IMG/VR virus record: IMGVR_UViG_3300044642_000928
Location: 1 to 21,041 of that record
Direction: 5' to 3' (one strand)
From: a virus
Length of the DNA: 21,041 bases
The notes under the pieces were generated by a model. It saw only the letters and a list, made by a program, of their open reading frames with translations. It was not told the origin of the DNA and did not search any database. This document shows positions 2,032-19,887 of the stretch, in pieces; within the stretch, counting starts at the first letter, position 1; every line of letters begins with the position of its first letter. Both the position numbers and the translations under genes were made by a program.

Positions 2032-2448
2032 TTATCGTTCGCCTTTATGTGTATCAAATTTATCTAGAATTTGATTCAAAAGGTTTGCTTGAATGAATCC
2101 AGCCATGGATGCATTTTTTAATGCACTTAATAATTCAAAAACAATAAATGGCACCAATATTGTTTCACTTAACCAACCGGTGCCAGGAAATCCTTTTTCC
2201 ACTAGCAATAACACTGTTAAAATTACAATCCATGTTACTGTGGTTCGCAATACTTTTAGTGCTTTAAATGTTTGGAAGCCTTCTCGTTTAACGCCAGCAA
2301 CTATTCCAAAAAACCCGTCGAACAATACCACAGCAATTAATGCCAAATATTGTTCGACGTGATCTAAGGTTAGATTGTAAAAATATGTACTAATAAATGT
2401 CATGGTTGTTGTTAGTACAAGTGATATTGCTAATGGGATTGATTTCAT
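2032..2448 (-). CDS. Holin-like protein (phage_holin_4_1/TcdE-type family)
   Basis: This 138-residue protein has three to four membrane segments (about 5-25, 34-52, 69-86, 93-113) and a charged C-terminal tail rich in Asp, Lys, Glu and Arg. The pattern LFDGFFGIVAGVKREGFQTFKALKVLR followed by a helix, then FELLSALKNASMAGF near residues 104-118, matches the layout of the phage_holin_4_1 (TcdE/Bhl) family: an Asp-Gly in the second helix, a basic loop, and a Glu-(Leu/Ile)-Ser-x-x-x-Asn motif. Holins of this type permeabilise the inner membrane and release the endolysin. The start codon shares one base with the stop of the endolysin gene upstream (TAATG), so the two are probably translationally coupled, which supports the lysis role. 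Confidence 0.75.
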   Translation of the reverse strand: MKSIPLAISLVLTTTMTFISTYFYNLTLDHVEQYLALIAVVLFDGFFGIVAGVKREGFQTFKALKVLRTTVTWIVILTVLLLVEKGFPGTGWLSETILVPFIVFELLSALKNASMAGFIQANLLNQILDKFDTHKGER

Positions 2449-3266
2449 TATTTTATATCATTGGATTCAATTAATGTGTATGAAAATTTATTTCCGTTTG
2501 CTGCACGAGCTATACGACAAATTGCCATAAACTCTTCGAAGTCTTTAGAACGTTTAAATACTTGGCATCCTTCTGACCAATTCTCTACAAATGTTGAGTC
2601 TGCACCAGCTTTATGAATATTGATTCCAAATACACCTTCTTGAATTTTATTTTCATCATATGTCATATCCTTGTTCGGATCACGGAATACTTTAACTGCT
2701 TTATTTTGTCCTAAGGCTTCATATTTCCCAGCATGTAATCGCATAATATGAGAATCAATATATTGTCCTTCTACTAATCGTGCTACACCCGCTTTGTTTC
2801 CATATTTCATAACGCCCTTTGTTCCAGGATCTGTTGTTGCTGGCCAGCAATGGAATTTTTCTTCACCACCAACTGTGTAAGATAATGTGATATGGTCGTC
2901 AAACAAATTTGTTACTTTGTGACCTGTGTCGGAATTTCGAGCTCCTACAATGTTTAATAGATAATCTTTACCTTCAAACCATTTGTATCCTTTTGCAATA
3001 ACTGCATTCTTAACTTGCTCTAATGTATATTTAGGAGCAGCAGTTGTTTTAGAAGCTGGTTTTGCTGCAGTTTTTGATTCTACAACTATTCCCATTTTAG
3101 CTAATGTAGCAGGTCCTACTACTCCATCTGCTTTTAAACCATTCTTAGTTTGCCAAGCTTTTACTGCTTCTTCTGTCTTAGGGCCAAAGTTTCCTACTGG
3201 ATCTACACCTAATACTACTTGAATTTTCTTTACAACTTCGTTGTTGTCACCTCTTTTAAGTACCAT
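2448..3266 (-). CDS. Endolysin: peptidoglycan-binding domain plus YkuD-like catalytic domain
   Basis: This protein has 272 residues. Residues about 1-58 are a PG_binding_1 domain (LKRGDNNEVVKKIQ, FGPKTEEAVKAWQ, ADGVVGPATLAKMG). An Ala/Lys/Thr linker spans about 63-78. The rest resembles a domain common in Bacteroidota and their phages: CWPATTDPGTKGVM near 140-153, then GINIHKAG with His218, then WSEGCQVF with Ser231, Gly233 and Cys234. The H-x12-SxGC spacing mirrors the catalytic His/Cys of L,D-transpeptidases (YkuD fold), with Gln where they usually have Arg. It has no signal peptide, so export would depend on the holin. The start at 3266 has a weak purine site (AAGAG) 6 nt upstream. An endolysin role is well supported by the neighbours; which bond it cuts or exchanges is not shown. 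Confidence 0.8.
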   Translation of the reverse strand: MVLKRGDNNEVVKKIQVVLGVDPVGNFGPKTEEAVKAWQTKNGLKADGVVGPATLAKMGIVVESKTAAKPASKTTAAPKYTLEQVKNAVIAKGYKWFEGKDYLLNIVGARNSDTGHKVTNLFDDHITLSYTVGGEEKFHCWPATTDPGTKGVMKYGNKAGVARLVEGQYIDSHIMRLHAGKYEALGQNKAVKVFRDPNKDMTYDENKIQEGVFGINIHKAGADSTFVENWSEGCQVFKRSKDFEEFMAICRIARAANGNKFSYTLIESNDIK

Positions 3267-3302: not shown

Positions 3303-4418
3303 TTATTTTTTTTCTTTACTGCCTTCTTGTGTAGCATACTTGATACCCATGATTGTACCAACTATTGAAAAGGCATTTGTTAATAATACACTAAACATAT
3401 TACTCCATGTAGAGCCTATTATTTGTGTGTCTTGGTTTGTTATAATAGCCATCCAGTATAATGTTGTTGTTACAACTCCTACTCCTACTATAACAGCTAA
3501 TGCAACTTTAACAATTATTTTTATTAGCTCACTTTGGCTTTTTTTCATCATGACATCTAAGTCATTTAGTGCTGCATCTTTTTCTATCTCAATTGCATTC
3601 TTAAGCTTTTGTGAGTTATCAAGTTCTACCTGTAAATTTGTTGTTAAGTCGTCGATTTTCTTCTTATTGTTTACAGCCTCAGTGACATCGGTTGCAATTT
3701 TAACTACATCAGTGATATTTCCTTTACTGTCTAAAACAGGATTGTAAGATGCTTGTAAATAAACAGTAGATCCATCTACTTTTCTTCTTTCAAATATTCC
3801 ATCAAAATACTTACCTTTTCTTAAACTATCCCAAAACTTAGTATAGTCATCAGATTTAGAATACTCATAGCTAACAAAAATGCTGTGATGTTTTCCAATG
3901 ACTTTAGCTTTTTCATTAGCTTTATAACCCATGGTTTCTAAGAATATAGAATTTGCATCTGTTATAAATCCATCAATGTTAAAACTAATAAGAGCTGTAC
4001 TTCTGTTGATGGCATCTATCTGTTTCTTGCTATTGACAATTGCACTAATGTCAGTAGCAACTTTCATTATCTTGGTAATCTTGTTGTCTTCATCAAAAAT
4101 AGGGTTATAAGTTGCTTGAAGATTGATAAGACTTCCATCTTTTCTTCGTCTTTCAAACTCACCTTGATAATACTTACCACTTCTTAAGATATCCCAAAAC
4201 TTTTCATACTCATATGACTTTGCGTAATCTTCACATACAAACATGCTATGGTGTTTACCGATAAGATCTTCGTGTTTACCTATACCATAACCCATTGCTT
4301 CCAAAAAAATGTCATTAACGCCTAATATGATACCATTAAGATCGAAATAAATAAGAGCATTACTCCTATTAATTGCTTCTATCCTGCTTAATAACTCTTC
4401 TTTTGATAGGTTTTTCAT
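3303..4418 (-). CDS. Tandem-PAS sensor with coiled coil and two C-terminal membrane helices
   Basis: This 371-residue protein has two PAS domains in tandem, about 13-126 and 135-247, roughly half identical to each other. Paired motifs include AINRSNALIYFDLNG / AINRSTALISFNIDG, IGKHHSMFV / IGKHHSIFV, GEFERRRKDGS / GIFERRKVDGS and ATYNPIFD / ASYNPVLD, and each PAS ends with ATD(I/V). This is the PAS type usually found ahead of chemotaxis receptors and known there to bind FAD or heme. A helical, probably coiled-coil, stretch (250-300) leads to TM1 (about 300-325) and TM2 (about 336-359), ending in a basic tail, EGSKEKK. There is no chemoreceptor signalling domain, kinase or GGDEF domain. The sensor part should be cytoplasmic. 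It sits between a two-helix membrane protein and the endolysin, so control of lysis is an inference from position. No clear Shine-Dalgarno is seen. Confidence 0.85.
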   Translation of the reverse strand: MKNLSKEELLSRIEAINRSNALIYFDLNGIILGVNDIFLEAMGYGIGKHEDLIGKHHSMFVCEDYAKSYEYEKFWDILRSGKYYQGEFERRRKDGSLINLQATYNPIFDEDNKITKIMKVATDISAIVNSKKQIDAINRSTALISFNIDGFITDANSIFLETMGYKANEKAKVIGKHHSIFVSYEYSKSDDYTKFWDSLRKGKYFDGIFERRKVDGSTVYLQASYNPVLDSKGNITDVVKIATDVTEAVNNKKKIDDLTTNLQVELDNSQKLKNAIEIEKDAALNDLDVMMKKSQSELIKIIVKVALAVIVGVGVVTTTLYWMAIITNQDTQIIGSTWSNMFSVLLTNAFSIVGTIMGIKYATQEGSKEKK

Positions 4419-4471: not shown

Positions 4472-4732
4472 TTAACCTAGTTCTTCTTCGTTATTATTTT
4501 GATTGTTGTTATTTTTACCTGCAAATTTTTCTAAACCTGCAATACCCAAACTACCTAAAGTAACAATAACAAATGAATTGTAAATGTATTCGTTAAGTTT
4601 CAACTCATTACCAAAGTAACCAGTTACTAAATCAACTATCATTGCCAATGTCATTACTGCGAAAGACATAAATCCAATGATTGTTTTTTCATTGTAATCG
4701 TTTGAGTTTTTAAAAATTTCATTAAACCTCAT
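4472..4732 (-). CDS. Small two-helix membrane protein, holin/antiholin candidate
   Basis: This 86-residue protein has a short charged N-terminus (FNEIFKNSNDYNEKT), TM1 at about 18-40 and TM2 at about 49-68. It ends in a hydrophilic Asn/Glu-rich tail (NNNNQNNNEEELG). Size and topology fit class II holins or antiholins, and it is the first gene of the block leading into the PAS protein and endolysin. I recognise no named family. It has the clearest ribosome-binding site in the window: AAGGA, 6 nt before the ATG. The 72 nt upstream, back to the end of the glycan operon, are AT-rich with no convincing terminator or promoter. Confidence 0.65.
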   Translation of the reverse strand: MRFNEIFKNSNDYNEKTIIGFMSFAVMTLAMIVDLVTGYFGNELKLNEYIYNSFVIVTLGSLGIAGLEKFAGKNNNNQNNNEEELG

Positions 4733-5947: not shown

Positions 5948-6843
5948 AATTCTTGTATTCTTTTTTGTATGTAAAAATCAATATTTTGATTAAAATTAGT
6001 TCGTTGTTCTGATACATCAGTCTTAACGATATTATTTCTATAATAACTAGAAAATTCTTTTCCAACTAACGGTCCGGTTCCATATTCAAATATAATTTGA
6101 TTATCTAGTCGATATTGTTGAAAATCATATCCATGTTGTTTGGCAATTGTACTAACTACAAGTCCATAATAATCCCATCCTCCATACCCAACCCAATCTT
6201 CTTGAACTGGTGCTAATTTTTCGTAATATGATTTACTATATAAATCGAACCATCCTGCCCATTTTTCTTGATTAATTGGTGTTAATTTAACCGGATCTGA
6301 TGTTGTTTTAATAAAATAATCTACATCAAATATATCGGTGGTGTGTTCCCAACCATAATGCGGGCCAATTGCAAATTTGGGATGCGTTAATATTTCCCAA
6401 CTTTCATCCCACATTCTACATATTTGCGGAGTAATTACGAAATATTCATTTTTTATTGTAGTCGCCGCTTGTATGATATATTCTAATAAATGTTCATGAA
6501 AATACATATCTGGACAAATTGTTATATAATAATCTACCGTTTCATGCATAGCAGATTTTTGTAAATCCAAATGTCCGTATAAAATATCTCCTTCAATAAT
6601 TTTTGGATTATGAATATAATCATTCAATAAAATAGAAATATTTTCATACTTTTGTATAAAAAAATCTTTTGGAAGTTTTGTTTGTTCCCAATCGATTAGT
6701 TTGTCAGATAAATTTAAAACGGAATCAATAATTATTGTATGTTCATTTGATAAAAAATACTTAGATTTTTTTAATTGTATAAATGAAAGTAATGCATAGT
6801 CAATTTCCCATGGCATTATATGATACATTATTTTTATATTCAT
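5944..6843 (-). CDS. Probable glycosyltransferase, GT-A-like
   Basis: This 299-residue protein has no membrane segment. An acidic motif, ITICPDMYFHEHLLEYI (about 107-123), lies where GT-A enzymes keep their metal-binding DxD. It is followed by YFVITPQICRMWDESW and a late WVGYGGWDYYGLV stretch reminiscent of the (E/W)GG(W/E)D acceptor-binding motif of GT2-like enzymes. Similarity to named families is weak, so glycosyltransferase is inferred from these motifs and from position among seven such genes. It overlaps both neighbours by 4 nt. Aromatic content (Tyr, Trp) is high. Confidence 0.55.
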   Translation of the reverse strand: MNIKIMYHIMPWEIDYALLSFIQLKKSKYFLSNEHTIIIDSVLNLSDKLIDWEQTKLPKDFFIQKYENISILLNDYIHNPKIIEGDILYGHLDLQKSAMHETVDYYITICPDMYFHEHLLEYIIQAATTIKNEYFVITPQICRMWDESWEILTHPKFAIGPHYGWEHTTDIFDVDYFIKTTSDPVKLTPINQEKWAGWFDLYSKSYYEKLAPVQEDWVGYGGWDYYGLVVSTIAKQHGYDFQQYRLDNQIIFEYGTGPLVGKEFSSYYRNNIVKTDVSEQRTNFNQNIDFYIQKRIQEL

Positions 6844-7610
6844 AGCATTTCTTTTAACTTATTATACGTTTCTTCTATTCCGCGTTTTAATCCAATAAAA
6901 TTTACATCTAAAGGATAATATTGACCTACATAGCCAGATATATTATTTCCTACTGATATCGGAACTTCATATGTATCTAAAGTATTAATAATTTTAGCAA
7001 TATTATAAAGATATAATTTCAGACCTGAATATATACAATCTAAAGTTTTTGGTAAATTATTATTATTAATATAATATTCTATTAAAGTAACCAAATCTTT
7101 CATATAAATAAAATCCATTAATTTATTTTCGTATATTTGGATCGTTTCTTTGTTAATATAACGTTTAATATTTGATTTAATAAATCTGGTATCTAATTCA
7201 TTTTCATCGAACACTCCAAATATTCTTAAATTATAAAAATTTGGTTTATCGTTAATCGATTGACTAATAATAAATTTGCTTAAACCGTACGGAGTCGAAT
7301 GAGTTAGTTCAGCACCAGATCCTAAATTTATAAATTTATTATAATTAGTTTGGTGATTTAAAAGATTATAGTATAATTTTATATTTTGATCTATAATTGA
7401 ACTGTCTTCTAGTTTGTTTCTGTGACCGCCAACGATTGCAGTATGAATTACTACATCAAAATATTTTCCGGAAAACCAATTATTTGTAGCTATCGAATCG
7501 GTTAAATCGAAATCATCTCTTCCAATGCAAGTAACCTCATATTTAGAATGTAAATATGAATACAAACTTCGTCCTATGTAACCATTTTTACCTGTAATTA
7601 ATATTTTCAT
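6840..7610 (-). CDS. NAD(P)-dependent sugar epimerase/reductase (extended SDR)
   Basis: This 256-residue protein belongs to the extended short-chain dehydrogenase family. The dinucleotide-binding GKNGYIG (7-13) opens the Rossmann fold, VVIHTAIVGG follows (53-62), Ser98 lies in LGSGAE, and Tyr108-x3-Lys112 (TPYGLSK) completes the catalytic triad. It is shorter than typical 4,6-dehydratases (about 320) and closer to reductases such as RmlD, GDP-fucose synthase or YerF. It therefore probably reduces or epimerises a 4-keto sugar. It lies immediately downstream of the aldolase/dehydrogenase/thiamine-enzyme trio with a 4-nt overlap, so it may reduce the product they make. The substrate is unknown. 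Confidence 0.75.
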   Translation of the reverse strand: MKILITGKNGYIGRSLYSYLHSKYEVTCIGRDDFDLTDSIATNNWFSGKYFDVVIHTAIVGGHRNKLEDSSIIDQNIKLYYNLLNHQTNYNKFINLGSGAELTHSTPYGLSKFIISQSINDKPNFYNLRIFGVFDENELDTRFIKSNIKRYINKETIQIYENKLMDFIYMKDLVTLIEYYINNNNLPKTLDCIYSGLKLYLYNIAKIINTLDTYEVPISVGNNISGYVGQYYPLDVNFIGLKRGIEETYNKLKEML

Positions 7611-8605
7611 TTATTCTTCAGCTTTTGTGCTACTTCTAAAATAAGATCTTCTTGTCCTGCAACTAATTTTCTATTTCCTAACTCAAAAATAAGAGATGAA
7701 TATTCAATTCCATATAATTTAGATGCTTTAATTATCGGCTTCTCAAATCCGGAAAATAATTTTGTTAATCCAGTTAAAACATTAATGGGCGTGGATACGG
7801 GATGTGTTGGAACTAAATAATCCATTACACGATCTGCTTCTTTAATCGTTTCTTCAAAACTAATTCCGGTAGAAAAATTACTACGTTCAAACACAGGTAA
7901 TAATAATTCTAAAGGTGCATTACCAGCTCCAGCCCCAAATCCTCGAATACACGCATCAATCAATTCAGCTCCATTTTCGGCAGCTACTAATGAATTAGCT
8001 ACAGCACATCCTAAATTATTATGCGCATGAAACCCAACTTTAATATTTAATTGTGATTTTAACAAACTAATACGTTCTTTTACGTCAGCAGGTAAATAAG
8101 TGCCTGTCGAATCCATAATGATAACAGCTTGGGCGCCATATTCTTCCATGATCTTAGCTTGTTCTGCTAACTCAGCTGGTGTGATTAAAGCAGACATCAT
8201 TAATACCCCATATACCGTTTTACCGGTCTTTGCTAAATATTCTATGTGGGATTTTGATAAAGTTGCTTCAGTACAATGTGTTGCGACACGAAATACATCG
8301 ACTCCATAATCGATAGCTAACATTGCGTCATCAATAGTAGATAAGCCTGGAATCGTATGAACTCCTAATTTTGATGATTTAAGATTTTTTCTAGCAATAG
8401 TTAACATTTCTTTGTCGGTATTAGGAGATTTTCCTATCAATAACGACGATGCTGCTAAACCATTACCGTGCCCTACTTCTACAACAGGTATTCCAGCTTT
8501 ATCCGCAAATTGACAATATCTTTCGATGCTGTCTAAACTAATAGTATGCTTAACGCTATGATTTCCGTCTCTAAGACTAGAATCCGTAATGATTATATTT
8601 TTCAT
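7607..8605 (-). CDS. 4-hydroxy-2-oxovalerate aldolase (DmpG/MhpE/BphI-like)
   Basis: This 332-residue protein has the family's usual length. It has a TIM barrel with LRDG (11-14; Arg12 and metal ligand Asp13), catalytic His20 (SVKH), VEVGHG near 42-47, VFRVATHC (104-111), IIMDSTG (162-168), metal-binding FHAHNNLG (His193, His195) and DACIRGFGAGAGNAPLE. A C-terminal communication domain (VPTHPVSTP onward) is the part that contacts the dehydrogenase in known complexes. The family cleaves 4-hydroxy-2-oxopentanoate to pyruvate and acetaldehyde, or runs in reverse. All key residues are present. In catabolic operons it degrades aromatics; here no aromatic-degradation genes exist and it sits in a glycan operon, so the physiological substrate is probably different. 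Confidence 0.92.
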   Translation of the reverse strand: MKNIIITDSSLRDGNHSVKHTISLDSIERYCQFADKAGIPVVEVGHGNGLAASSLLIGKSPNTDKEMLTIARKNLKSSKLGVHTIPGLSTIDDAMLAIDYGVDVFRVATHCTEATLSKSHIEYLAKTGKTVYGVLMMSALITPAELAEQAKIMEEYGAQAVIIMDSTGTYLPADVKERISLLKSQLNIKVGFHAHNNLGCAVANSLVAAENGAELIDACIRGFGAGAGNAPLELLLPVFERSNFSTGISFEETIKEADRVMDYLVPTHPVSTPINVLTGLTKLFSGFEKPIIKASKLYGIEYSSLIFELGNRKLVAGQEDLILEVAQKLKNK

Positions 8606-8607
8606 AG

Positions 8608-9465
8608 TTAATGTTTTAATTTTTCTGTAATCTTAATTGCCGCACAGTTAATAATATCTAAGTTACCGGCATATTCTGGCAGATACTCTCCAGTTCCCTT
8701 TACCCTAATACTTAATACAACTACTCCGTTTTCATTTAGTGTAGGCGGTAATACTAGTTCGTAATATGGTATATAAGTTTTTAATTCTTCTATTTTTTCT
8801 GCAATCTTTTCTGTTAAATTATTAAAATCAATTTCTTTAGTTTTAATAAAAATAGTAGTTTGCATATCAACGCATGGTTCTGCGGGATTCAAATTAAGAA
8901 TAACTTTAGTTTTTCTACATCCGGTGAACTTAGTTATTGCATTTTTTGTAGTTTTAATGTAATTGTCAACATTGATTCTCGTAGCCATTCCGGCACTTTT
9001 AGATGCAATTTGAGACACAATTTCTACGTATTCTAATCCTTTACAATGTTTTGATATTAAATGTAACATTGGCATTGATGCTTGTCCCCCACACGTAATC
9101 ATGTTAACATTATCATCCGTTAATATAATATCTCCATTAACATCAGGTACGCACATATCCCCAACTTTTGCTGGAGTTAAATCAATTACTTTGATTCCTT
9201 GTTCTTTAAAGATTTTAGCATGTTCTTTAGCATCTGTAGCATTAGTACAATCATATACCACTTCGCAACAATTAGGATTATTTTTGAAATAATCAATTCC
9301 TTGATCTGATATTTTAATTCCTTTTGATTTAGCAATACTCATCGTGCCAGAATCCAATCTTCTTCCTACGAATGCTACTACATCAATAAAGTCAGTTTTA
9401 ATTGACTTTAACATGAGATCGGTACCGATATTACCTGTACCTAAAATTGCTACTTTTATTTTCAT
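8608..9465 (-). CDS. Acetaldehyde dehydrogenase, acylating (DmpF/MhpF/BphJ-like)
   Basis: This 285-residue protein has an NAD-binding GTGNIGT (9-15) and FVGRR, then CTNATDAKEHAKIF (73-86) and the catalytic Cys125 in NMITCGGQASMP. A conserved SAGMATRINVDNYI stretch follows, and the C-terminus re-enters the dimer/complex fold (AGNLDIINCAA). The family oxidises acetaldehyde with NAD and CoA to acetyl-CoA and works as a channelling complex with the aldolase, whose gene starts 2 nt downstream. It is slightly shorter than catabolic homologues (about 300-315). Its own start overlaps the stop of the thiamine-enzyme gene by 4 nt, suggesting the three are made together. Confidence 0.92.
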   Translation of the reverse strand: MKIKVAILGTGNIGTDLMLKSIKTDFIDVVAFVGRRLDSGTMSIAKSKGIKISDQGIDYFKNNPNCCEVVYDCTNATDAKEHAKIFKEQGIKVIDLTPAKVGDMCVPDVNGDIILTDDNVNMITCGGQASMPMLHLISKHCKGLEYVEIVSQIASKSAGMATRINVDNYIKTTKNAITKFTGCRKTKVILNLNPAEPCVDMQTTIFIKTKEIDFNNLTEKIAEKIEELKTYIPYYELVLPPTLNENGVVVLSIRVKGTGEYLPEYAGNLDIINCAAIKITEKLKH

Positions 9466-11213
9466 CTCGTTATACTATTACTTCGTTCATTAATTCCGGA
9501 AACCATCGCCGCTTTAATATCTTCTAAAGGCAACAATGGCGACATTTCTTCTAGTAATCCAGCTTGAATTGTATTGTCATTATTTTTGATACCTTTTACT
9601 TTAGGTATAAATTCTTGATTCGGATCCATAAATACTTCTAAAATACTTTGATTGGTAGCTGCTAAAAAATCATCAACATTATCTAATGTATAATAATCAT
9701 ATCCAAATGCATCTGCTACTTTTTTATATTCTGGAAGTTCTACGCCTGTTGATTTATCAACGCAAGTTTTCGTTCCACCAAATAACATGTTTTGCGTATG
9801 CTTGATCATTAAGTAGCCATCATTGTTAAAGATAACAATTTTAACTGGCAAATTATGAGTTTTAATTGTTTGAAGTTCTTGTAAATTCATCATCATACCT
9901 CCATCACAATTCAAACATAATACTGACTTATTACCAAATCCAGCGCCAACCGCCGCGGCAAGACCATATCCCATTTCGCCTAAACCTAATGATGTAAACA
10001 TCTTTTGATTTGGTTTGATATTAAATCCATAAAAGCCACTTAATAAAGCAGTTCCCATGTCCGTAACAATTGTATAGTTATCGGGTACTTTGTTTGAGAA
10101 CCAATCTATAAATGTATATGAATTAGTAGGATCAACTAAATGTTCAGGCATTACTCTAGGATATTTGTTTCGAATGTTATCGCAATATAATTTCCAATCC
10201 GTAGTGTCTACTTTAATTAAATCAACTGAAATTAAATCATATAAGATGTTTCCGATATCTTCATTAATTGGTAATCCATCAAATTTATTTGTTTCTGTTG
10301 AGTCTATATCAATATGAACTATTGTTGCATTAGGTGCAAAATCTTTTCTAGAATATCCTGTTTGTAATAGAGATAATCTACTTCCCATTACAATTAATAA
10401 ATCGCAATTTTGTACTATAAAATTGGATGAACGTTGTCCTTGAACACCTGAACGACCGTAGTTATTTGAATGAGTTTCTTCAAGTAAATCTACTGCTGAC
10501 CAAGTTAATATTGTGGGTAAATTATGTTGCTCAATAAATTGTTTAAATAATTTTTCTGATTGAGATAATTTAACTCCATGTCCTCCAATTACAACTGGTC
10601 TTTTACTTTGGTTAAGTAAATCTATTAAGTCTAATGTTTTTGGACTTAACATTGGAGTGTTTAATTTTTTAAATGGGGTGATAGGTTGTTCTTCAACCAT
10701 TTGTCCTTGAATATCAAATGGTATTTCTAAAAATACAGGACCTGGTCTATTGATTTGTGTTGTTTCAAATGCCTTTTCAAATGTTTCGTATACATTTTCT
10801 TTAGTGATTCGAACAGACATTTTTGTATGTTTTGAAAATGTATCTACTGAATCATATCCTTGAATACCGTACATTCTCATATCTGAATATTCATTAATAT
10901 AATATGATTGTTCTTGTCCCGATATAATAATTCCAGGAATTGAATCTGCCCAATTGGATAAAATACCAGTAAATGAATTCGAAGATCCTCCGCCGGCTGT
11001 AACTAGTGATGCAGCCAGTTTTCCAGTAGATCTATAATATGCTCCCATTGCCATAACGGCAGCTTGTTCATGATGTACAGCGATTAATTTAATATTAGAT
11101 TTGTTATTTATGGAATTGTATATATGAGAATTAGCAGACCCGATAATACCAAATACAACTTCGATATTATTCTTTTCTAAAAATTCTGCTATAACATCAC
11201 TAACTTTTACCAT
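9462..11213 (-). CDS. Thiamine-diphosphate-dependent enzyme, acetolactate synthase/YerE-like
   Basis: This 583-residue protein has the three-domain layout of the pyruvate decarboxylase/acetolactate synthase superfamily. The N-terminal Pyr domain has the catalytic Glu49 in VHHEQAA. A central domain (about 190-340) carries VVIGGHGV and LLIVMGSRL. The C-terminal PP domain has the Mg/ThDP motif running from Cys436-Asp437-Gly438 to Asn463-Asn464 (FNNDGY). The first Gly of the usual GDG is Cys here. Relatives include YerE, which adds an acetyl group from pyruvate to a 4-keto-3,6-dideoxy sugar. Because it is coupled to the acylating dehydrogenase and aldolase and shares the operon with an E1-type 3-dehydrase, a role in building a branched sugar is more likely than branched-chain amino-acid synthesis. 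FAD use cannot be judged from sequence. Confidence 0.88.
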   Translation of the reverse strand: MVKVSDVIAEFLEKNNIEVVFGIIGSANSHIYNSINNKSNIKLIAVHHEQAAVMAMGAYYRSTGKLAASLVTAGGGSSNSFTGILSNWADSIPGIIISGQEQSYYINEYSDMRMYGIQGYDSVDTFSKHTKMSVRITKENVYETFEKAFETTQINRPGPVFLEIPFDIQGQMVEEQPITPFKKLNTPMLSPKTLDLIDLLNQSKRPVVIGGHGVKLSQSEKLFKQFIEQHNLPTILTWSAVDLLEETHSNNYGRSGVQGQRSSNFIVQNCDLLIVMGSRLSLLQTGYSRKDFAPNATIVHIDIDSTETNKFDGLPINEDIGNILYDLISVDLIKVDTTDWKLYCDNIRNKYPRVMPEHLVDPTNSYTFIDWFSNKVPDNYTIVTDMGTALLSGFYGFNIKPNQKMFTSLGLGEMGYGLAAAVGAGFGNKSVLCLNCDGGMMMNLQELQTIKTHNLPVKIVIFNNDGYLMIKHTQNMLFGGTKTCVDKSTGVELPEYKKVADAFGYDYYTLDNVDDFLAATNQSILEVFMDPNQEFIPKVKGIKNNDNTIQAGLLEEMSPLLPLEDIKAAMVSGINERSNSITR

Positions 11214-12157
11214 ATAAATTTATTTCTATAATATTTTACAATTTCTTTTAACTCAACATCAAATTGTTTCCTCGGTTCCCAGCCTAGAGATCTTAGTTTA
11301 GAATCATTTAATGAATATCTAACATCCATACCTGGCCTATTATATGATAAATCAATATATTTTTCAATATCATTTATATCAATATTATTTATAATAAGAA
11401 GTTTTTTAACAGTTTCCAAGTTGCTTTGTTCAAACCCACCACATATATTAAAAATTTCATTTTCGACGCCAGATTCTATGATTGTAATTATAGAATTTGC
11501 AGTATCTTGTGCATGTAGCCAATTTCTAACGGGAGTACCACCATTATGTAATGGTATTTTTTTTCCCAATGTTAATAATTTGCACGCTTTAGGAATTAGT
11601 TTTTCTACATACTGACCAATGCCGTAATTATTTGTAGGACGAACAATTACATACGGTACATTATGAGTACGTTGCCAAGCTAATATTAACATATCGGCTG
11701 CAGCTTTTGTTGCTGAATAAGGATTAGAAGGTTTTAATAGATGTTCTTCTGTATGTTCGCCAGATTCAATATCTCCATATACTTCGTCTGTACTAAAATG
11801 TAATAATATTGGTTTTTTAGAATGTTCCCCTCGATGATTCTTTATAAGTTCTAATAAATTATGAACACCATCGATATTTGATTTAATGAATTCAGAACTG
11901 CTAACAATTGAATTTCCAACATGTGTTTCTGCTGCAGTATTAATCACATAATCACAATCATATAAAAATTTTAAATCATTGATATCGCAATGCACAAAAG
12001 AAAAATTTGGATATATTTTAAATTCATTTAATACATCTTTATTTGCAGCATATGTAATTTTATCAACGCCTTTAACATACCAACCTTTTTCTAAACACGT
12101 ACGTGTCACATAGGATCCTATAAATCCTAAACATCCGGTCACATAAACTACTTTCAT
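11207..12157 (-). CDS. dTDP-glucose 4,6-dehydratase-like SDR (RmlB family)
   Basis: This 316-residue extended SDR has the cofactor loop TGCLGFIG (7-14) and NTAAETHVGNSI (73-84), which is the RmlB signature. The catalytic Thr123-Asp124-Glu125 lies in FSTDEVYGD, with Tyr147-x3-Lys151 in NPYSATK. RPTNNYGIGQYVEKLIP, GTPVRNWLHAQD and a C-terminal RPGMDVRYSLN also match RmlB. The family makes dTDP-4-keto-6-deoxyglucose, the branch point for many deoxysugars. RmlA, RmlC and RmlD are not in the window, so donor supply and later steps must come from elsewhere. It overlaps the thiamine-enzyme gene by 7 nt and the upstream gene by 4 nt. Confidence 0.88.
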   Translation of the reverse strand: MKVVYVTGCLGFIGSYVTRTCLEKGWYVKGVDKITYAANKDVLNEFKIYPNFSFVHCDINDLKFLYDCDYVINTAAETHVGNSIVSSSEFIKSNIDGVHNLLELIKNHRGEHSKKPILLHFSTDEVYGDIESGEHTEEHLLKPSNPYSATKAAADMLILAWQRTHNVPYVIVRPTNNYGIGQYVEKLIPKACKLLTLGKKIPLHNGGTPVRNWLHAQDTANSIITIIESGVENEIFNICGGFEQSNLETVKKLLIINNIDINDIEKYIDLSYNRPGMDVRYSLNDSKLRSLGWEPRKQFDVELKEIVKYYRNKFIW

Positions 12158-12987
12158 ACAAATCTTTCTTTACATCGTTCTACAAACTTATTAACTTGTT
12201 TAATCATATCTTCTTCAGCTATTTCAATTTCTTTATATAACAATGGCAATGTTTCTATTGCTCTGTCGATATCGGTTTCGCCGAAAGCTACCCCATATGG
12301 ATTAAACCTAGATCCCATTAACCATTCTTCTTTTGTTTTTGTTCCGTCTGGGATTACTATACTTATACAACCACACATTGCTGCTTGTATAGATAAAAAA
12401 GTATAATTATCATAACAATAAAATTTTTTAGTTGCATTAAATATACTTGATATATTTGATAAATTTCCAGCATCATGAAATTTAATTTCAATCGAGTCAG
12501 CTGGGTGTACTAATGATTTTGGATTTCCTTTTCGTATAGAATAGCAACTTCCGTTTCTAGATACATTTTTATTTTGAAATATATTCGAATGAAATTCTGT
12601 TATCATTAATTGATTTTCGCGCGATCCTAATTCGTCAGTATAATAATAATCCATATACCAATATATTAAATCCGTATCTGAATATGTATTATAATCTGTT
12701 TGATTTGCTGGGCCTAATATCCATCTTACCACATTTTTTGAATTCAATGGATTATAATGAATTCCTTCCGGATATATTACAATTGCATCAGAAATGTTAT
12801 CAAATATTTCTTGAGTTATTAACGGCGTATTGTAATCGGAACATACATTAAATGTATCTCGTACATGGATTGGCATTAAATAACAAGGATAACCAATTTG
12901 GTTTAGTAAATGACATAATTTATGCATTACTTTGATTCCGCCAACACCCGGATCATAATCATATGTGTAAATTACAAAAGGTTTCAT
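12154..12987 (-). CDS. Probable GT-B glycosyltransferase (GT4-like)
   Basis: This 277-residue soluble protein starts YTYDYDPGVGGIKVMHKLCHLL, the usual Gly-rich N-terminal loop of GT-B enzymes. Its C-terminal half has FYCYDNYTFLSIQAAMCGCISIVIPDG (about 206-232), the donor-side pattern in which a conserved acidic/Tyr-rich stretch leads into Ala-x-x-x-Gly-(C/T)-x-x-(I/V)-(V/I)-x-(P/D). An N-terminal receptor-domain strand (AIVIYPEGI) is also visible. Donor and acceptor are unknown. It is shorter than typical GT4 enzymes (350-400), so part of the acceptor domain may be reduced. Confidence 0.6.
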   Translation of the reverse strand: MKPFVIYTYDYDPGVGGIKVMHKLCHLLNQIGYPCYLMPIHVRDTFNVCSDYNTPLITQEIFDNISDAIVIYPEGIHYNPLNSKNVVRWILGPANQTDYNTYSDTDLIYWYMDYYYTDELGSRENQLMITEFHSNIFQNKNVSRNGSCYSIRKGNPKSLVHPADSIEIKFHDAGNLSNISSIFNATKKFYCYDNYTFLSIQAAMCGCISIVIPDGTKTKEEWLMGSRFNPYGVAFGETDIDRAIETLPLLYKEIEIAEEDMIKQVNKFVERCKERFV

Positions 12988-13730
12988 ACTAAATTGTGCG
13001 TATTTTCATTTAAAAACCAATAAACATTATCAGAATATCGTTCTTCTCCAATACAATGCATAAAATCTATTTGATTTGGTAATTCAATAATTCTTTTTTT
13101 GTCTAATGCATGTCCTATAGCGGCTGGGGCTGATAAATTTGCGATTAACATGTTACATGAATTAATAGAAGTAAACCATTCATCTAAAGTTGTTACCTTG
13201 TAAAATTCAACTAAATGTTTATACGGAAATTCATTATAATCATTAATGGTAGACGAAATAAATAATACGTTGTCTTTACCATAATGATCAATTAATCGTT
13301 CATATGGAAAATCTGGATTACGCATTACATTAGCTTTACGTTGTATTAATATTTTGTTTTGTAAAATGGTATCGAGTTTATTATACGTTAACCATTTATA
13401 GTCGCCATTTATCGTAAATTTAAACATGTTTTGATAAATATTTGACCAACACGTTTGATATAATAGTTCTGAGTCAATATATCGTCCTAAATCAATATAT
13501 TCCGCCGGAACTTCATGTTTAACGTAATTATCATATATTCCGAAACTTTTAATATATGGCTGTTGCATAATTATATCATACAACTCTTGATATGTATTTT
13601 CAATTCCAAATTCCCATCCTATGTCGTACATGTATAAATCAGCCGGCTCATTATGAAGTTCGCATAAATTTTTTACAGCAAATAATGAATGAACAAAATC
13701 ACCTAATTTGCCTCCCATTAAAAACTTCAT
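12984..13730 (-). CDS. GT9/heptosyltransferase-like glycosyltransferase
   Basis: This 248-residue protein begins FLMGGKLGDFVHSLFAVKNL, the G-G-x-(L/I)-GD-x-(V/I) signature of the ADP-heptose:LPS heptosyltransferase superfamily (Gly6, Gly7, Gly10, Asp11). The C-terminal part has VTTLDEWFTSINSCNMLIAN followed by LSAPAAIGHALDKKRIIEL, which matches the donor-binding end of GT9 (Ser/Asp-(T/S)-x-x-x-H-x-A-x-A). At 248 residues it is about 100 shorter than true heptosyltransferases, so it may use another sugar. Both ends overlap neighbouring genes by 4 nt. Confidence 0.65.
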   Translation of the reverse strand: MKFLMGGKLGDFVHSLFAVKNLCELHNEPADLYMYDIGWEFGIENTYQELYDIIMQQPYIKSFGIYDNYVKHEVPAEYIDLGRYIDSELLYQTCWSNIYQNMFKFTINGDYKWLTYNKLDTILQNKILIQRKANVMRNPDFPYERLIDHYGKDNVLFISSTINDYNEFPYKHLVEFYKVTTLDEWFTSINSCNMLIANLSAPAAIGHALDKKRIIELPNQIDFMHCIGEERYSDNVYWFLNENTHNLV

Positions 13731-14077
13731 AATTTTATCTCAGTATATTCAGTTTCGAAAAATTTTTCTTGTATTGCTATTTTTTTTAAATACCGGTCGT
13801 AATTTGCTTTAGCAGTTATAGTAGATAATTCAGATTCATGTGCTCTGTCGACTAATTCAAACACTAATGCATTGGTATTTCGTAACATTTCATATTCGAT
13901 GCTAGTTTTTATTTGATTAAATTTATCGATTCCTATTTGATTTATTATTTCATCACTTAATAACTGATATGAAGTGTTTAATTTTTTATTGACAATGCCG
14001 GTACTGTTTTCTAATTTTACTTCATAAATTGATAGTAAATCAAATACATACGATTCATCTAAACTAATCTTTAACAT
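13727..14077 (-). CDS. Small helical protein of unknown function in the glycan operon
   Basis: This protein has 116 residues, soluble and predicted largely helical. It has an N-terminal DESYVFDLLSIYEVKLENS segment, a middle helix (IGIDKFNQIKTSIEYEMLRN), NALVFELVDRAHESE (69-83), and NYDRYLKKIAIQEKFF near the end. The general spacing (a short N-terminal strand, an Ile/Leu-Lys helix, Asn-(L/V)-F-x-x-(V/I)-D-R-A, a closing RY-x-x-K-x-x-I-Q helix) faintly recalls the DUF6165 family, which occurs in sugar-gene clusters, but I cannot confirm membership. It is translationally coupled to the GT9-like gene (4-nt overlap). A partner or regulatory role for an adjacent transferase is speculation. Confidence 0.55.
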   Translation of the reverse strand: MLKISLDESYVFDLLSIYEVKLENSTGIVNKKLNTSYQLLSDEIINQIGIDKFNQIKTSIEYEMLRNTNALVFELVDRAHESELSTITAKANYDRYLKKIAIQEKFFETEYTEIKL

Positions 14078-14083
14078 ATAACG

Positions 14084-14704
14084 TTATTTATTTTTAATAT
14101 TTTCTATAATATGAAGTCCAGTGCATTTTTCAAAGTAATTATTCGATATAAATTCATTTGAAAAATATTTTGGATTAATCCACCAATCTTCGAAGTAATT
14201 AGTATCATCCCATAATCCTAAACTACCATTTGGTGCTTTAACATCGTCGCATAATCGAATATATCCTTTTGATGATAAAATATCATATGATTTTGTTTTA
14301 GACTCATTGCCGCCAGCATAAAAATCATGTTCAAATGTCATTATTTTAAATTCATACGAATCAAATGGAAAATTTTCTAATCCAACGATTGATGTTGGAT
14401 CGATATCTAATGATATGTAATCAATTACGGTTGGCACTTCATAAAAATTAAAAATATCTCGTAATTCCGTTTGAGGTATAAGAACAGTTAATACATCCGA
14501 ATTTATACTTACATTACGACGATTTGTTGCTGATGCTGGGTCTCCGTCAATACATACGCCTTTCCAACCAGCTTCTTCTAGAAGCAATGTATTACTATTG
14601 ATTCCAGTGTGATCAAATCCGGCGCCAATATCTACAAAAAACCCGGCGTTCCCAATAAGTTTTAGTGCAAATTGATCTTGGTATACTTGTGAATATGTTT
14701 TCAT
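14084..14704 (-). CDS. FkbM-family SAM-dependent methyltransferase
   Basis: This protein has 206 residues. SQVYQDQFALKL opens the protein as in FkbM-type methyltransferases. FFVDIGAGFDHTGINSNTLLLEE (22-44) is SAM motif I, and WKGVCIDGDP (about 47-56) is motif II with the ribose-binding acidic residue. DYISLDIDPTSI (about 95-106) is the post-motif strand with its Asp pair, and KIMTFEHDFY gives the usual (T)-(I/F)-E-x-(D) stretch. The family O-methylates sugars and polyketides, so methylation of a glycan hydroxyl is likely, though the target is unknown. The minus-strand sequence around its stop codon contains AATAAATA. Confidence 0.78.
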   Translation of the reverse strand: MKTYSQVYQDQFALKLIGNAGFFVDIGAGFDHTGINSNTLLLEEAGWKGVCIDGDPASATNRRNVSINSDVLTVLIPQTELRDIFNFYEVPTVIDYISLDIDPTSIVGLENFPFDSYEFKIMTFEHDFYAGGNESKTKSYDILSSKGYIRLCDDVKAPNGSLGLWDDTNYFEDWWINPKYFSNEFISNNYFEKCTGLHIIENIKNK

Positions 14705-15621
14705 GCTGTTACGAATTCTATTAAACGTTTAAATGTATCAATTAAATTTTCCTGAGACCATTCTTTCCGCAATTTTTCTACATAGTTAGTTGTTTTATTA
14801 AATTCTAATATTTCTGGTAATGTATGTAATGCCATATCTATATTAGGATCGTACACCGGATTAAACATACCTACATTGGTAATTGCTAATGGCGTATTAG
14901 TAGATATTACATAATCAGGAACTCCAGAAATGTCGCGGCCATATCGATATGCAAATGCCATTAAATCATTGTTATAACAAAAATCTAAAATTTCTTCATT
15001 TGAAAGAAACTCAGTAGTAATATTTAATTTAATTCCAGGTTTTAACAGTACCGATCTCATTCTTTCAATATCTGCATTTTGACCGATACCGTCATTATCG
15101 CCATAATATGCTCTAGTAATATGAATATTAATTTGTGCATTTTCAAATTGATCGTTTACTAATTTTACTAAGTCATCAAAACCTTTACGTTCTCCAGCAA
15201 ACCCAAATGAGCCAATATGTACAACATCGTGTTTTGGTTTAGGTTTACTAAGATCGTATTTATATAATGGTCTCGTAAAACCATTTTTTAATGGATCTTG
15301 ATCAATATAATAATCAAACGTAGCAGTATGAAAATCTGGCGTATGCATTATTGTTACTGTATTTAAATCCGGAAAATTATTTTTTACATGTTGAAGAAGT
15401 CCATGATTTAACCAACCATATGGCCCAGTAGGACCACCTTCAATCCAATTAAACAACAATACGTTAACTTGAGATAAATTTAACTGATTAAAATCTTGCA
15501 ACGTTTCTATTTCAAAATACTCAATATCCAAATCGCAATGTTGCAGGGTATCCCAGATACGTAACCCGTATTGATACACCCCGCAATTTTTTTGTTTACT
15601 ATTTATGTAGTATATTTTCAT
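14701..15621 (-). CDS. GT-B glycosyltransferase (GT1/GT4 type)
   Basis: This protein has 306 residues and a GT-B fold. The N-terminal half has MKIYYINSKQKNCGVYQYGLRI and a loop near FNWIEGGPTGPYGWL. VHIGSFGFAGERKGFDDLVKL (about 135-155) is the inter-domain donor-site start seen in GT4 (G-(S/R)-(F/L)-x-x-x-K-G). INIHITRAYYG and FLSNEEILDFCYNNDLMAFAYRYGRDISG correspond to the region in which GT4 enzymes bind the donor sugar; the usual EX7E is not obvious. VISTNTPLAITNVGMF follows. A transferase activity is well supported; specificity is not. It overlaps the next gene by 4 nt. Confidence 0.75.
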   Translation of the reverse strand: MKIYYINSKQKNCGVYQYGLRIWDTLQHCDLDIEYFEIETLQDFNQLNLSQVNVLLFNWIEGGPTGPYGWLNHGLLQHVKNNFPDLNTVTIMHTPDFHTATFDYYIDQDPLKNGFTRPLYKYDLSKPKPKHDVVHIGSFGFAGERKGFDDLVKLVNDQFENAQINIHITRAYYGDNDGIGQNADIERMRSVLLKPGIKLNITTEFLSNEEILDFCYNNDLMAFAYRYGRDISGVPDYVISTNTPLAITNVGMFNPVYDPNIDMALHTLPEILEFNKTTNYVEKLRKEWSQENLIDTFKRLIEFVTA

Positions 15622-16853
15622 TATTTTCCAATTATCTCAAACTTAGGACATGGAACGATAAATTTACCACCATTTGACAAATATTCATCTTCTCTTTGTA
15701 CAAATTCAGATATAAAATGCCACGGAAGTACTAACATATAATCTGGCTTCATTGCTCTAACTTCTTCTTCCGATAAAATAGGAATATTAGTTCCAATTGT
15801 TTTTAATCCAAATTTATATGGGGAACGTTCTGCAATTGCATCTATCATTGTATGATCCAATCCAAACCATTGTAATAATGTATTTCCTTTTGTCGATGCG
15901 CCATATCCGCAAATTACTTTACCTTTAGCTTTTTCTTGTTTAATAAAGTTTACGGTTTGTTCTTTAAGTTCTTCAATATCCGACTGAAACTTTTTCCATA
16001 TATTTAAATCATTCATATTATAGAATGTAGTTTCATATTCTAGTAACGAATCTACTCTAAATTTACATACATCTCTTAATGGACTAGTACCAAATGATGT
16101 AACGTCAGCTGTTTCTTTTTGTACATAAACTCGGAAACTACCTCCATTAACATCATTTAAACTGCAGTCGACTATTTTTAATCCGTGACTCTCAAATAAT
16201 TTTTTAAATGAACCAATTGAATGATAATATGCGTGTTCGTGACAAATATTATCAAATGCCAATTGTTTAATCATTAATGGAGTATATGACAATTGTAATA
16301 CCCATATTCCATTATCATCTAATATTTTACAAACATCATTAATAAAAGGATGCGGATCTAATAGATCGTAAAACATAGCAATCGTCGTTATAACTTTGAC
16401 TTTTTTATCGCCATACCCCGTACGTTGATATGCGTCGTAACTAAAATAATCTTGTACAATCGTAGCTACTTTAGATGATTCGTTAACAAAAGTATCATCT
16501 GCAGGATCGATACCTATTTTACTATAAGTATCAGGTACTTGCTTTAATAAAGTTCCATCATTACATGCAATATCTAACCATATGTCACCTGATTGATGTT
16601 TTACTCGAGATGTTATTTCATCTACAATGTTTCCTAATTCTTTAGTCATAGTAGCATTAATTCCGGAACGATACCAATACTTACCCCACATCGTTTCATT
16701 TGGTGGCATTCCCGTTAATCTAGCAGCGCCAATTTCAGTGTTTAATACTAAATCTAAACTATATTTTTCTCGGCCGGTATAGTCGGATTCTGATTTAATA
16801 AAATCCGAAACATAATGTTCGCCTAAATTTACAACTTTGATGTTATTTTCCAT
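15621..16853 (-). CDS. Sugar C-methyltransferase-like protein (NovU/TylC3/TcaB9 type), lacking the N-terminal zinc site
   Basis: This protein has 410 residues in the three-part layout of nucleotide-sugar C-methyltransferases. The N-terminal domain (VVNLGEHYVSDFI, SLDLVLNTEIGAARL, WYRSGINATM at 60-69) aligns with the family's zinc-binding module, but the Cys pairs are replaced, for example NTEIG where VCxxCG is usual. SAM motif I is IWLDIACNDGTLL (91-103). The catalytic stretch FDNICHEHAYYHS carries Glu206-His207, matching the Glu-His pair of TcaB9. The C-terminal domain starts at ICGYGASTKGNTLLQ with the second Rossmann-like region. The family methylates carbon 3 of 4-keto deoxysugars, which would fit the 4,6-dehydratases in this operon. 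Its start is 4 nt from the Gmd stop. Confidence 0.82.
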   Translation of the reverse strand: MENNIKVVNLGEHYVSDFIKSESDYTGREKYSLDLVLNTEIGAARLTGMPPNETMWGKYWYRSGINATMTKELGNIVDEITSRVKHQSGDIWLDIACNDGTLLKQVPDTYSKIGIDPADDTFVNESSKVATIVQDYFSYDAYQRTGYGDKKVKVITTIAMFYDLLDPHPFINDVCKILDDNGIWVLQLSYTPLMIKQLAFDNICHEHAYYHSIGSFKKLFESHGLKIVDCSLNDVNGGSFRVYVQKETADVTSFGTSPLRDVCKFRVDSLLEYETTFYNMNDLNIWKKFQSDIEELKEQTVNFIKQEKAKGKVICGYGASTKGNTLLQWFGLDHTMIDAIAERSPYKFGLKTIGTNIPILSEEEVRAMKPDYMLVLPWHFISEFVQREDEYLSNGGKFIVPCPKFEIIGK

Positions 16854-16857
16854 ATAT

Positions 16858-17835
16858 TTACTTTATATTATTTTTTAATAAATTAATATCATTAGTTACC
16901 ATTATATTAACCATTTGTTCCAAACTGGTTTTAGGTTCCCATCCTAATTTTTCTTTTGCTTTTGATGCATCGCCTAATAAACACATCGGATCTACTGGAC
17001 GTAATAATTTACTGTCAAATTTAACAAATTTACTCCAATTATCAATTCCAATACACGCAAATGAATAATCTAAAAATTCTTTAATTGAATATGTTTTACC
17101 AGTTGCTAAAACAAAATCTTCCGGAGTATCTTGTTGAAGCATCATCCACATTCCTTCTACGTAATCAGGCGCATATCCCCAATCTCTTTTAGATTCGATA
17201 TTTCCTAATGTTATATGATCTGCTAATCCTAAATGTATACGAGCAACTCCATCAGTAATTTTTCGTGTTACAAATTCTACACCCCTACGTTCTGATTCAT
17301 GATTGAATAAAATTCCATTTACTGCAAACATACCATAACTTTCTCGATAGTTTTTAGTAATCCAATACGCATATAATTTTGCTACACCGTATGGCGAACA
17401 TGGATGAAAATCTGTTAATTCATTAGCAGTTCCACCTTTTTTACCAAACATTTCAGATGACGATGCTTGATAAAATTTAGTGTTTTTATTTCCATATTCG
17501 CGAATAGCTTCTAAAACGCGTAATGCACCTAAACCGGTTATATCTGAAGTTTGTTCCGGTGTTCCCCAACTTTCTCCAGCAAAGGATTGTGCTCCTAAAT
17601 TATAAACTTCATGCGGTTCGCTATCTTTAACTGCGCGAACTAATGAATTTTGATCCGATAAATCTCCTTTCAACATATGAATTTGATCGGATACTTTGAA
17701 TAAATTCGGAGTATATGGTGTACTTTTTCTTCGTTCTAATCCAAATACTTCATAATCTTTTGATAATAAAAATTCGGCTAAATGAGATCCATCCATCCCG
17801 CCGATACCTGTAATTAATGCTCGTTTCTTTTTCAT
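16858..17835 (-). CDS. gmd: GDP-mannose 4,6-dehydratase
   Basis: This protein has 325 residues. The cofactor loop TGIGGMDGSHLAE (9-21) is a variant of the family's TGITGQDGSYLAE. YNLGAQSFAGESW (78-90), ASSSEMFGK (124-132) with Glu128 and a Ser where most have Thr, and SPYGVAKLYAYW with Tyr149 and Lys153 complete the active site. FNHESERRG (177-185), ESKRDWGYAPDYVEGMW and RPVDPMCLLGDASKA are further Gmd hallmarks. It makes GDP-4-keto-6-deoxymannose, the precursor of fucose, colitose, perosamine and rhamnose. No GDP-mannose supply genes are in the window. The start shares one base with the stop of the E1-type gene upstream. Confidence 0.92.
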   Translation of the reverse strand: MKKKRALITGIGGMDGSHLAEFLLSKDYEVFGLERRKSTPYTPNLFKVSDQIHMLKGDLSDQNSLVRAVKDSEPHEVYNLGAQSFAGESWGTPEQTSDITGLGALRVLEAIREYGNKNTKFYQASSSEMFGKKGGTANELTDFHPCSPYGVAKLYAYWITKNYRESYGMFAVNGILFNHESERRGVEFVTRKITDGVARIHLGLADHITLGNIESKRDWGYAPDYVEGMWMMLQQDTPEDFVLATGKTYSIKEFLDYSFACIGIDNWSKFVKFDSKLLRPVDPMCLLGDASKAKEKLGWEPKTSLEQMVNIMVTNDINLLKNNIK

Positions 17836-19220
17836 TATTTATTCTTAAAATTAAAATTAAAAAATTTATCTACAATTGTTTTAATATATGCAATTTGTTC
17901 TTCTGTAATAACTGGACTACAACCTAAAAAGAATGTATCGGTTGTAACTTTTCTGGCTATTGGAAAATCATTGATTACTTGTTCAGGATCCATTAATCCT
18001 TGATATGCTGGCTGTAACATAATATTACCAGCAAAATATGGCCGTGTTTGTATTTTGTGTGATTCTAAAAATTGACAAAATTCGGCTCTCGTAAATCCAG
18101 CACCATCTTTTACCGTTAATGCTACAGCAAACCAATCTGGATCTGCGTGTTCTGTTGCTTTTGGTAAATAAAAGAATTGTTCATATGATTTAAAAATATC
18201 AACAATTAATGCGTGATTTTTTCTTCGAATTTGACCTATTTCTTCTAATTTTTGCATTTGCACAAATGCCATAGCAGCTTGCATTTCTATTGGTTTTAAA
18301 TTATAACCAATTTCTTCGTAAACATATTTATGGTCAAATACGTCATTTGGCAGAGCTGGTAACCAATTATTAAATCGTTGATTACACATTCCGCATTCTA
18401 ACTGATTTTGTTTTCCTACACAATAACAGCCTCGACCCCAATCTCTAAAACTTCTTAAAATTCGCTCCGTTTCTAAATCATTACATGCAACAAAACCGCC
18501 TTCACCCATAGTAATATGATGTGCTGGATAAAATGAACAACTGGCCATTTTGCCATATGTTCCTAATGGCTGATCTTTGTATTTTGAACCTAATGCATCG
18601 CAGCAATCTTCTAATAAAATTAAATTGTATTTTTCAACCAATTCCATTAAACGATCCATATTAGGAGGATTTCCTAAAACATGTGCAAATGTTATAACTT
18701 TAATATCCGGATCTTCTTTTAATTTTTGTTCTACTTGATCTAAATTTAAATTTAAAGATTCTAATTCAATATCCACAAATACCGGAGTAAATCCTAACTG
18801 CAAAATAGGATTAATTGTTGTAGGAAATCCAGCAATTGGAGTTAATACTTTAGTTCCTTTTGGCAAATTCATACCTCGTTTTGAGGTTAATGCTGCTAAC
18901 ATTAATAAATTTGCACTAGATCCACTGTTCGTTAAAATTCCTAATTTTTTACCTAACCGTTTAGGAAATCTGGATTCGAAACGTATACCTTCTTGTCCTA
19001 AAACTAACCATCCTCCTAGTAATGTTTTAACTGCTGCTATATATTCTTTTTCATCAAAATAATTTCCAGCATATTGAACTAAATCTTTACCAGCTTCCCA
19101 TGTTTTAGATGATTCTTTATGTTTGATGAACTTTTCTACTAGATTTAAAATATCTTCTACTTTTAAATCTTTAGAATCTATGAATTCTCGTTCTAAATCA
19201 GTGTACGTTTTATTAATCAT
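17835..19220 (-). CDS. rfbH: E1-type NDP-4-keto-6-deoxyhexose 3-dehydrase (RfbH/DdhC), PLP and [2Fe-2S]
   Basis: This 461-residue protein belongs to the DegT/DnrJ/EryC1 fold but has the E1 features. The PLP site reads SFYPAHHITMGEGG, with His234 where aminotransferases have Lys, so it should dehydrate rather than transaminate. RDWGRGCYC (Cys265, Cys267), Cys276 and Cys279 in ECGMCNQRF, and Cys207 in LEDCCDAL fit the [2Fe-2S] spacing C-x57-C-x-C-x7-C except for one extra residue before the last Cys. ILTNSGSSANLL (95-106) and TPIAGFPTTINPI complete the cofactor pocket. Characterised E1 acts on CDP-4-keto-6-deoxyglucose with an E3 reductase to give 3,6-dideoxy sugars; neither E3 nor CDP-glucose genes are here. 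ColD is less likely because it lacks the cysteines. Confidence 0.9.
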   Translation of the reverse strand: MINKTYTDLEREFIDSKDLKVEDILNLVEKFIKHKESSKTWEAGKDLVQYAGNYFDEKEYIAAVKTLLGGWLVLGQEGIRFESRFPKRLGKKLGILTNSGSSANLLMLAALTSKRGMNLPKGTKVLTPIAGFPTTINPILQLGFTPVFVDIELESLNLNLDQVEQKLKEDPDIKVITFAHVLGNPPNMDRLMELVEKYNLILLEDCCDALGSKYKDQPLGTYGKMASCSFYPAHHITMGEGGFVACNDLETERILRSFRDWGRGCYCVGKQNQLECGMCNQRFNNWLPALPNDVFDHKYVYEEIGYNLKPIEMQAAMAFVQMQKLEEIGQIRRKNHALIVDIFKSYEQFFYLPKATEHADPDWFAVALTVKDGAGFTRAEFCQFLESHKIQTRPYFAGNIMLQPAYQGLMDPEQVINDFPIARKVTTDTFFLGCSPVITEEQIAYIKTIVDKFFNFNFKNK

Positions 19221-19864: not shown

Positions 19865-19887
19865 AATATATAATACGTTATTTTAAA

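Follow-up and report, generated by a model that had tools for sequence, protein, structure and literature searches.

A gene on the minus strand of the phage DNA analysed here (the window, a stretch of 21,041 nucleotides from an IMG/VR virus record) encodes a PAS-PAS-coiled coil-two-helix membrane protein of 371 aa (3303..4418, ATG start), and belongs to a family in which a membrane hairpin is wired to sensory inputs. The finding is thus one of a modular signalling family and not of the single odd gene of the sequence-only reading. We favour, with a probability of roughly 0.58, a reading in which the window gene encodes a one-component sensor whose membrane part serves as the output and tunes lysis (its timing or its licence). 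Lysis timing is a central decision of a virulent phage, the best-known sensing input being superinfection (T4, ICP1). Hundreds of uncultured phages carry what appear to be signalling pathways of the bacterial kind, some of them with a complete kinase-receiver pair, and these pathways end in one near-frozen membrane hairpin which, in its PAS-fused form, stands at the endolysin. Such a sensor-wired hairpin suggests that these phages monitor the condition of the infected cell and thereby decide whether, and at what moment, it is lysed. If lysis control is true, the reading of host physiology or environment by a phage to time lysis becomes testable, and the module would be a natural sensor-gated lysis switch.

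The window protein comprises PAS domain 1 (residues about 21-125; 4044..4358, minus strand; Pfam PAS_3/PAS_9 and model) and PAS domain 2 (residues about 140-250; 3669..4001, minus strand; PAS_3/PAS_4 and model), which self-matches show to be about half identical. Pfam recognised these two PAS stretches clearly (PAS_3 E=3e-25, 88.7 bits against a curated cut-off of 25.6; PAS_9 8e-21), and matched neither an output domain nor a HAMP or methyl-accepting signalling domain of the Aer/MCP type in the 371 aa. In the AlphaFold model (mean pLDDT 84), two PAS folds, at residues about 21-123 and about 142-244, are followed by a continuous helix at residues 246-326 (3441..3683, minus strand), in which the coiled coil runs unbroken into membrane helix 1 (about 301-326; mean hydrophobicity 0.75), then by a five-residue turn and by helix 2 at 332-364. 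The architecture proposed in the sequence-only reading (two PAS domains, a coiled coil and two C-terminal membrane helices, with no known output domain) was therefore confirmed by Pfam and the model, and the model contains a plausible membrane hairpin. Membrane helix 2 coincides with a near-invariant segment, TQIIGSTWSNMFSVLLTNAFSIVGTIMGIKYAT (residues 331-363; 3330..3428, minus strand), and is amphipathic (moment 0.28 versus 0.12 for shuffled sequences; p=0.008), one face carrying the Asn, Thr, Ser and Gly residues N340, T347, S351, G354/T355 and G358. Charged stretches flank the hairpin, KKSQSELIK ahead of helix 1 and KYATQEGSKEKK past helix 2, from which, by the positive-inside rule, we infer membrane insertion with an N-in, C-in topology. 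No Pfam or PHROG profile of a known holin family matched the window protein, the 44 PAS-less members scanned gave scattered weak Pfam matches only for the hairpin, and Foldseek of a PAS-less model against the PDB returned no fold match for it at E<0.001. A match to phrog_1544 (E=1e-3) was put down to chance, because PAS-less members did not share it.

The gene (hereafter PAS-TM) lies in a minus-strand cassette with the order mem86, PAS-TM, endolysin-like gene and Phage_holin_4_1 gene. The first (4472..4732) encodes an 86-aa two-helix membrane protein, a holin or antiholin candidate with 58% identity to gp192 of Flavobacterium phage immuto. The endolysin-like protein (2448..3266) combines PG_binding_1 with a phrog_3000 domain (Pfam/PHROG matches), the latter with relatives in crAss-like/Bacteroides phages, and by eye displays an H-x(n)-S-x-G-C motif like that of L,D-transpeptidases. 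The last gene (2032..2448) encodes a 138-aa holin (PF05105, E=3.9e-7; phrog_199 holin) with 60% identity to immuto gp190, a 'holin'. Hence the placement of PAS-TM between a two-helix holin/antiholin candidate and the endolysin, noted from the sequence, is borne out, with the Phage_holin_4_1 gene coming after the endolysin. Beside the cassette, positions 6840-21030 hold a run of sugar and small-molecule genes (epimerases, an aldolase/dehydrogenase pair, a thiamine-diphosphate enzyme, an aminotransferase, methyltransferases and glycosyltransferases), identities that, except for the aminotransferase, are judgements from sequence only.

Over the matched genes, the window is identical to two IMG/VR contigs (L002 and L003; 51 and 160 kb). 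The major capsid protein of the 160-kb relative is of the T4 type and, along its entire length, shares 57.5% identity with its counterpart in immuto, a cultured Flavobacterium phage of 160 kb in which gp192, a GH19-like endolysin and gp190 are adjacent. PAS-TM is absent from this matching immuto cassette, which argues for an accessory gene, an added regulator and not a core holin. This is a context of the antiholin type, with the gene beside holin and endolysin and the immuto cassette working without it. The carriers are many uncultured phages of fresh and marine waters that probably infect Flavobacteria and relatives, and Bacteroidota are the probable hosts of the family at large, as judged mostly from the immuto relative and from the relatives that the endolysin has in crAss-like/Bacteroides phages.

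Searches of IMG/VR revealed relatives of the whole 371-aa protein at at least 202 viral loci and, in one search, of its C-terminal part at at least 554 loci, in three forms (two PAS domains, one PAS domain, or PAS-less). A search of 50,697 phage records with the C-terminal part and a PAS-less member as queries yielded no match to the module, which isolate-based surveys would therefore have missed; the only sizeable INPHARED match (MT836939.1; L149) was rejected by eye as a bacterial chemoreceptor and GGDEF/EAL contig labelled Bacteriophage sp. A scan of genome contigs with coiled-coil patterns gave no match, and a further pattern scan recovered one phage contig (L333; CAJQGZ010000002.1), which carries kinase, receiver and hairpin together with terminase-like and PhoH-like phage genes, as judged by eye, and is assigned to a bacterial metagenome bin. 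A relaxed helix-2 pattern found solely members of the hairpin family among the matches listed.

Conservation within the protein is highest in the hairpin. The PAS domains and the coiled coil vary, but helix 2 is near-invariant: all 33 of its residues are the same in 136 of the 137 distinct proteins of an early set, and PAS-less proteins retain its Asn, Thr, Ser and Gly at the corresponding positions. Synonymous codons of helix 2 vary as in the rest of the gene, which rules out constraint at the DNA level. For pairs with 75-85% protein identity, fourfold-degenerate sites were 0.47-0.55 identical, against 0.385 expected at saturation; such protein identity while fourfold sites approach saturation indicates strong purifying selection and rules out recent horizontal spread as the source of the high identity. 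The neighbouring holins are variable (59-75% identical), and a near-invariant helix 2 beside them suggests that the partner of the hairpin is the hairpin itself, through self-association, or a conserved host protein, and not a phage holin.

These data bear on the possibility that PAS-TM is itself the holin, a sensor-gated pore former whose firing would be set by the PAS or kinase-receiver state. Its two-helix hairpin, its amphipathic, polar-faced helix 2 and its position beside endolysins fit such a role, as does the fact that at many loci no family holin is recognised (holin_4_1 in 7 of 46 two-PAS loci). However, a Phage_holin_4_1 gene already adjoins the endolysin in the window, cultured immuto possesses holin and endolysin without PAS-TM, helix 2 is almost frozen while holins usually evolve fast, and a match to a holin family (PF23809), weak and below cut-off, was seen in only 3 of 44 PAS-less members. 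We consider a pore-forming PAS-TM unlikely.

Homologues scattered without lysis neighbours, named in the sequence-only reading as evidence that would speak against it, were not what we observed for the PAS-fused form: 107 of 118 loci (67/77 two-PAS and 40/41 one-PAS) have an endolysin no more than 1 kb away, although these counts are not independent since the loci share ancestry. In a survey of neighbour classes across 96 non-redundant loci, a mem86-like protein and endolysins were the commonest neighbours, the former being found within 3 kb in 66/75 loci. The endolysins belong to four unrelated classes (M15 peptidase, GH24 lysozyme, GH19 and phrog_3000 type), which indicates that the lysis link is not one inherited block. 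As a whole-contig background, 13 PAS-fused contigs (91-272 kb, two of which, G016 and G017, are apparently the same phage) yielded 17 matches in all to the four endolysin families; 15 of these fall within about 1.3 kb of the module and cover 12 of the 13 contigs, the exception being G006 with its nearest endolysin about 10 kb away. Near PAS-fused cassettes we also observed a lipoprotein with a C-terminal membrane helix, in a one-protein spanin layout (cluster 24, e.g. L094:4506-4982).

The PAS-less proteins (180-228 aa) consist of a short N-terminal domain (..LEGNI.KLID..), a coiled coil and the hairpin. Among those genes with sufficient upstream sequence, (i) a receiver gene precedes the PAS-less gene in 43/43, mostly with a 1-4 base overlap, (ii) a histidine kinase is present in 27/27 loci, and (iii) the order is kinase-receiver-hairpin, with the hairpin last. 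Pfam identified PAS, GAF and HATPase_c in these operons, and Response_reg above cut-off; the kinases have intact H, N, G1 and G2 boxes in addition to HATPase_c, and D9, D10, D61 and K114 are invariant in the eight receivers compared, as expected of a two-component system. No such kinase occurs upstream of PAS-fused genes (0/97 loci), the window gene is accompanied by no kinase-receiver pair of its own, and a receiver of the operon family was found in none of the 13 long PAS-fused contigs and once in each of two PAS-less contigs. All 15 contigs (13 PAS-fused and two PAS-less) carry one hairpin each. The assumption that the membrane part is the output is strongly supported, both by the conservation of the hairpin, higher than that of any other part, and by its reappearance in PAS-less proteins encoded after a kinase and a receiver.

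Kinase-receiver operons are tied less closely to lysis genes than PAS-fused genes are: an endolysin was located within 1 kb in only 7/35 loci and at up to 3 kb in 8/15, with clear lysis contexts in L243, L244, L283, L295, L320 and L325. Some of these operons sit among other genes, so that the module could serve something else. It could accordingly regulate the host or the envelope and have no bearing on lysis timing (acting, for instance, in superinfection exclusion, or in the control of host respiration or energy state), being placed in a late operon for the timing of its expression; the lysis genes may be merely the late-expressed landing place of an accessory gene. The looser tie of the kinase-receiver forms to lysis genes and the near-invariant helix 2, with its hint of a conserved and perhaps host partner, agree with such a role, to which we nonetheless give slightly less credence than to a holin, because the PAS-fused form stays at the endolysin despite changes in endolysin class and gene order, more than a mere late-operon passenger would need. 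That the gene has no function of its own and survives as a degenerate or selfish relic of some chemoreceptor or kinase, as the lack of a catalytic output domain might indicate, is hardly credible given the strong purifying selection and the more than 550 loci.

In the phylogenies, the hairpins of the PAS-fused forms make up one clan (support 0.935), and the fused PAS domains likewise group together (0.98), closest to the last PAS domains of the phage kinases, in a tree with two bacterial PAS only as outgroup. Most likely, a kinase-type PAS was fused once to the hairpin, the kinase and receiver being replaced by a PAS in cis; this single-fusion history is the simplest account of the trees and of the operon pattern.

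Under the lysis-tuning sensor that we favour, the cytoplasmic PAS pair would read a ligand or the cofactor state of the infected cell, and the resulting change would travel via the coiled coil to the two-helix hairpin. There, the polar-faced helix 2 may pack into an oligomer or onto a membrane partner, and the packed hairpin would tune, with a sign that could be either, the lysis set by the adjoining holin, mem86 and endolysin. In the two-component form of related phages, the signal would pass from histidine kinase to receiver and on to the PAS-less hairpin protein, possibly by phosphorelay onto its N-terminal domain. It is about an even bet that these phages represent a signalling class in which one conserved membrane lysis-control effector is served by interchangeable inputs (one or two PAS domains, or a kinase-receiver pair with PAS, GAF or, in a single operon, a microbial rhodopsin) responding to redox, metabolic or light cues.

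Lysis inhibition by the T4 antiholin RI (PMC8385771) and by ICP1 ArrA, which is non-essential (PMC7182436), shows that phages sense lysis conditions. T4 RI/RIII and ArrA resemble the proposed role in that they read a condition, superinfection, and shift lysis time via the holin, but they do so with small periplasmic or cytoplasmic sensing domains and have no PAS, kinase or receiver, and Pfam/PHROG scans disclosed no sequence link between them and the PAS-TM family. The closest solved PAS sequences are the redox/FAD sensors MmoS, Aer (8dik) and NifL, the MmoS/NifL type being nearest both by sequence (3ewk, E=8.7e-13) and by fold (rank 1); in an alignment judged by eye, however, Tyr/Phe and Glu/Arg stand in the fused PAS where those proteins have their FAD-contacting Trp and Asn. 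Aer-type aerotaxis receptors and BdlA-like PAS chemoreceptors share with PAS-TM the PAS sub-type and the combination of PAS and membrane anchor, whereas PAS-TM has no HAMP or chemoreceptor signalling domain and the C-terminal hairpin is its apparent output. The PAS-less relatives, like bacterial two-component systems, have a full histidine kinase and receiver, but here the output is apparently a separate membrane hairpin protein, neither DNA-binding nor enzymatic, and all components are phage-encoded. Outside preprints, the only relevant literature found on phage two-component systems or PAS proteins in lysis concerned the histidine kinases in pelagiphage curli (T8SS) clusters (PMC9599517), the nearest phage-kinase precedent that we found; these likewise lie in a phage envelope-function cluster, but a different one, and no mention of a membrane hairpin of the PAS-TM family was found in that paper.

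Several kinase-receiver operons depart from the three-gene layout. In L253 and L290, a tandem pair of histidine kinase genes lies upstream of a single receiver and hairpin, and in L250, L271, L283 and L305 an extra gene is inserted between the receiver and hairpin genes, encoding a protein of 162-167 aa that has several membrane helices and begins with a conserved LTYHDSEPTEVLQGLIW. In L305, a microbial rhodopsin (L305:4290-4868; PF01036, E=3.8e-12; motifs RYFDW..T.P and D..AK), with proteorhodopsin as its nearest solved relative, is encoded between the receiver and hairpin genes, next to a phrog_3000 endolysin, and may possibly provide a light input to the kinase-receiver operon.
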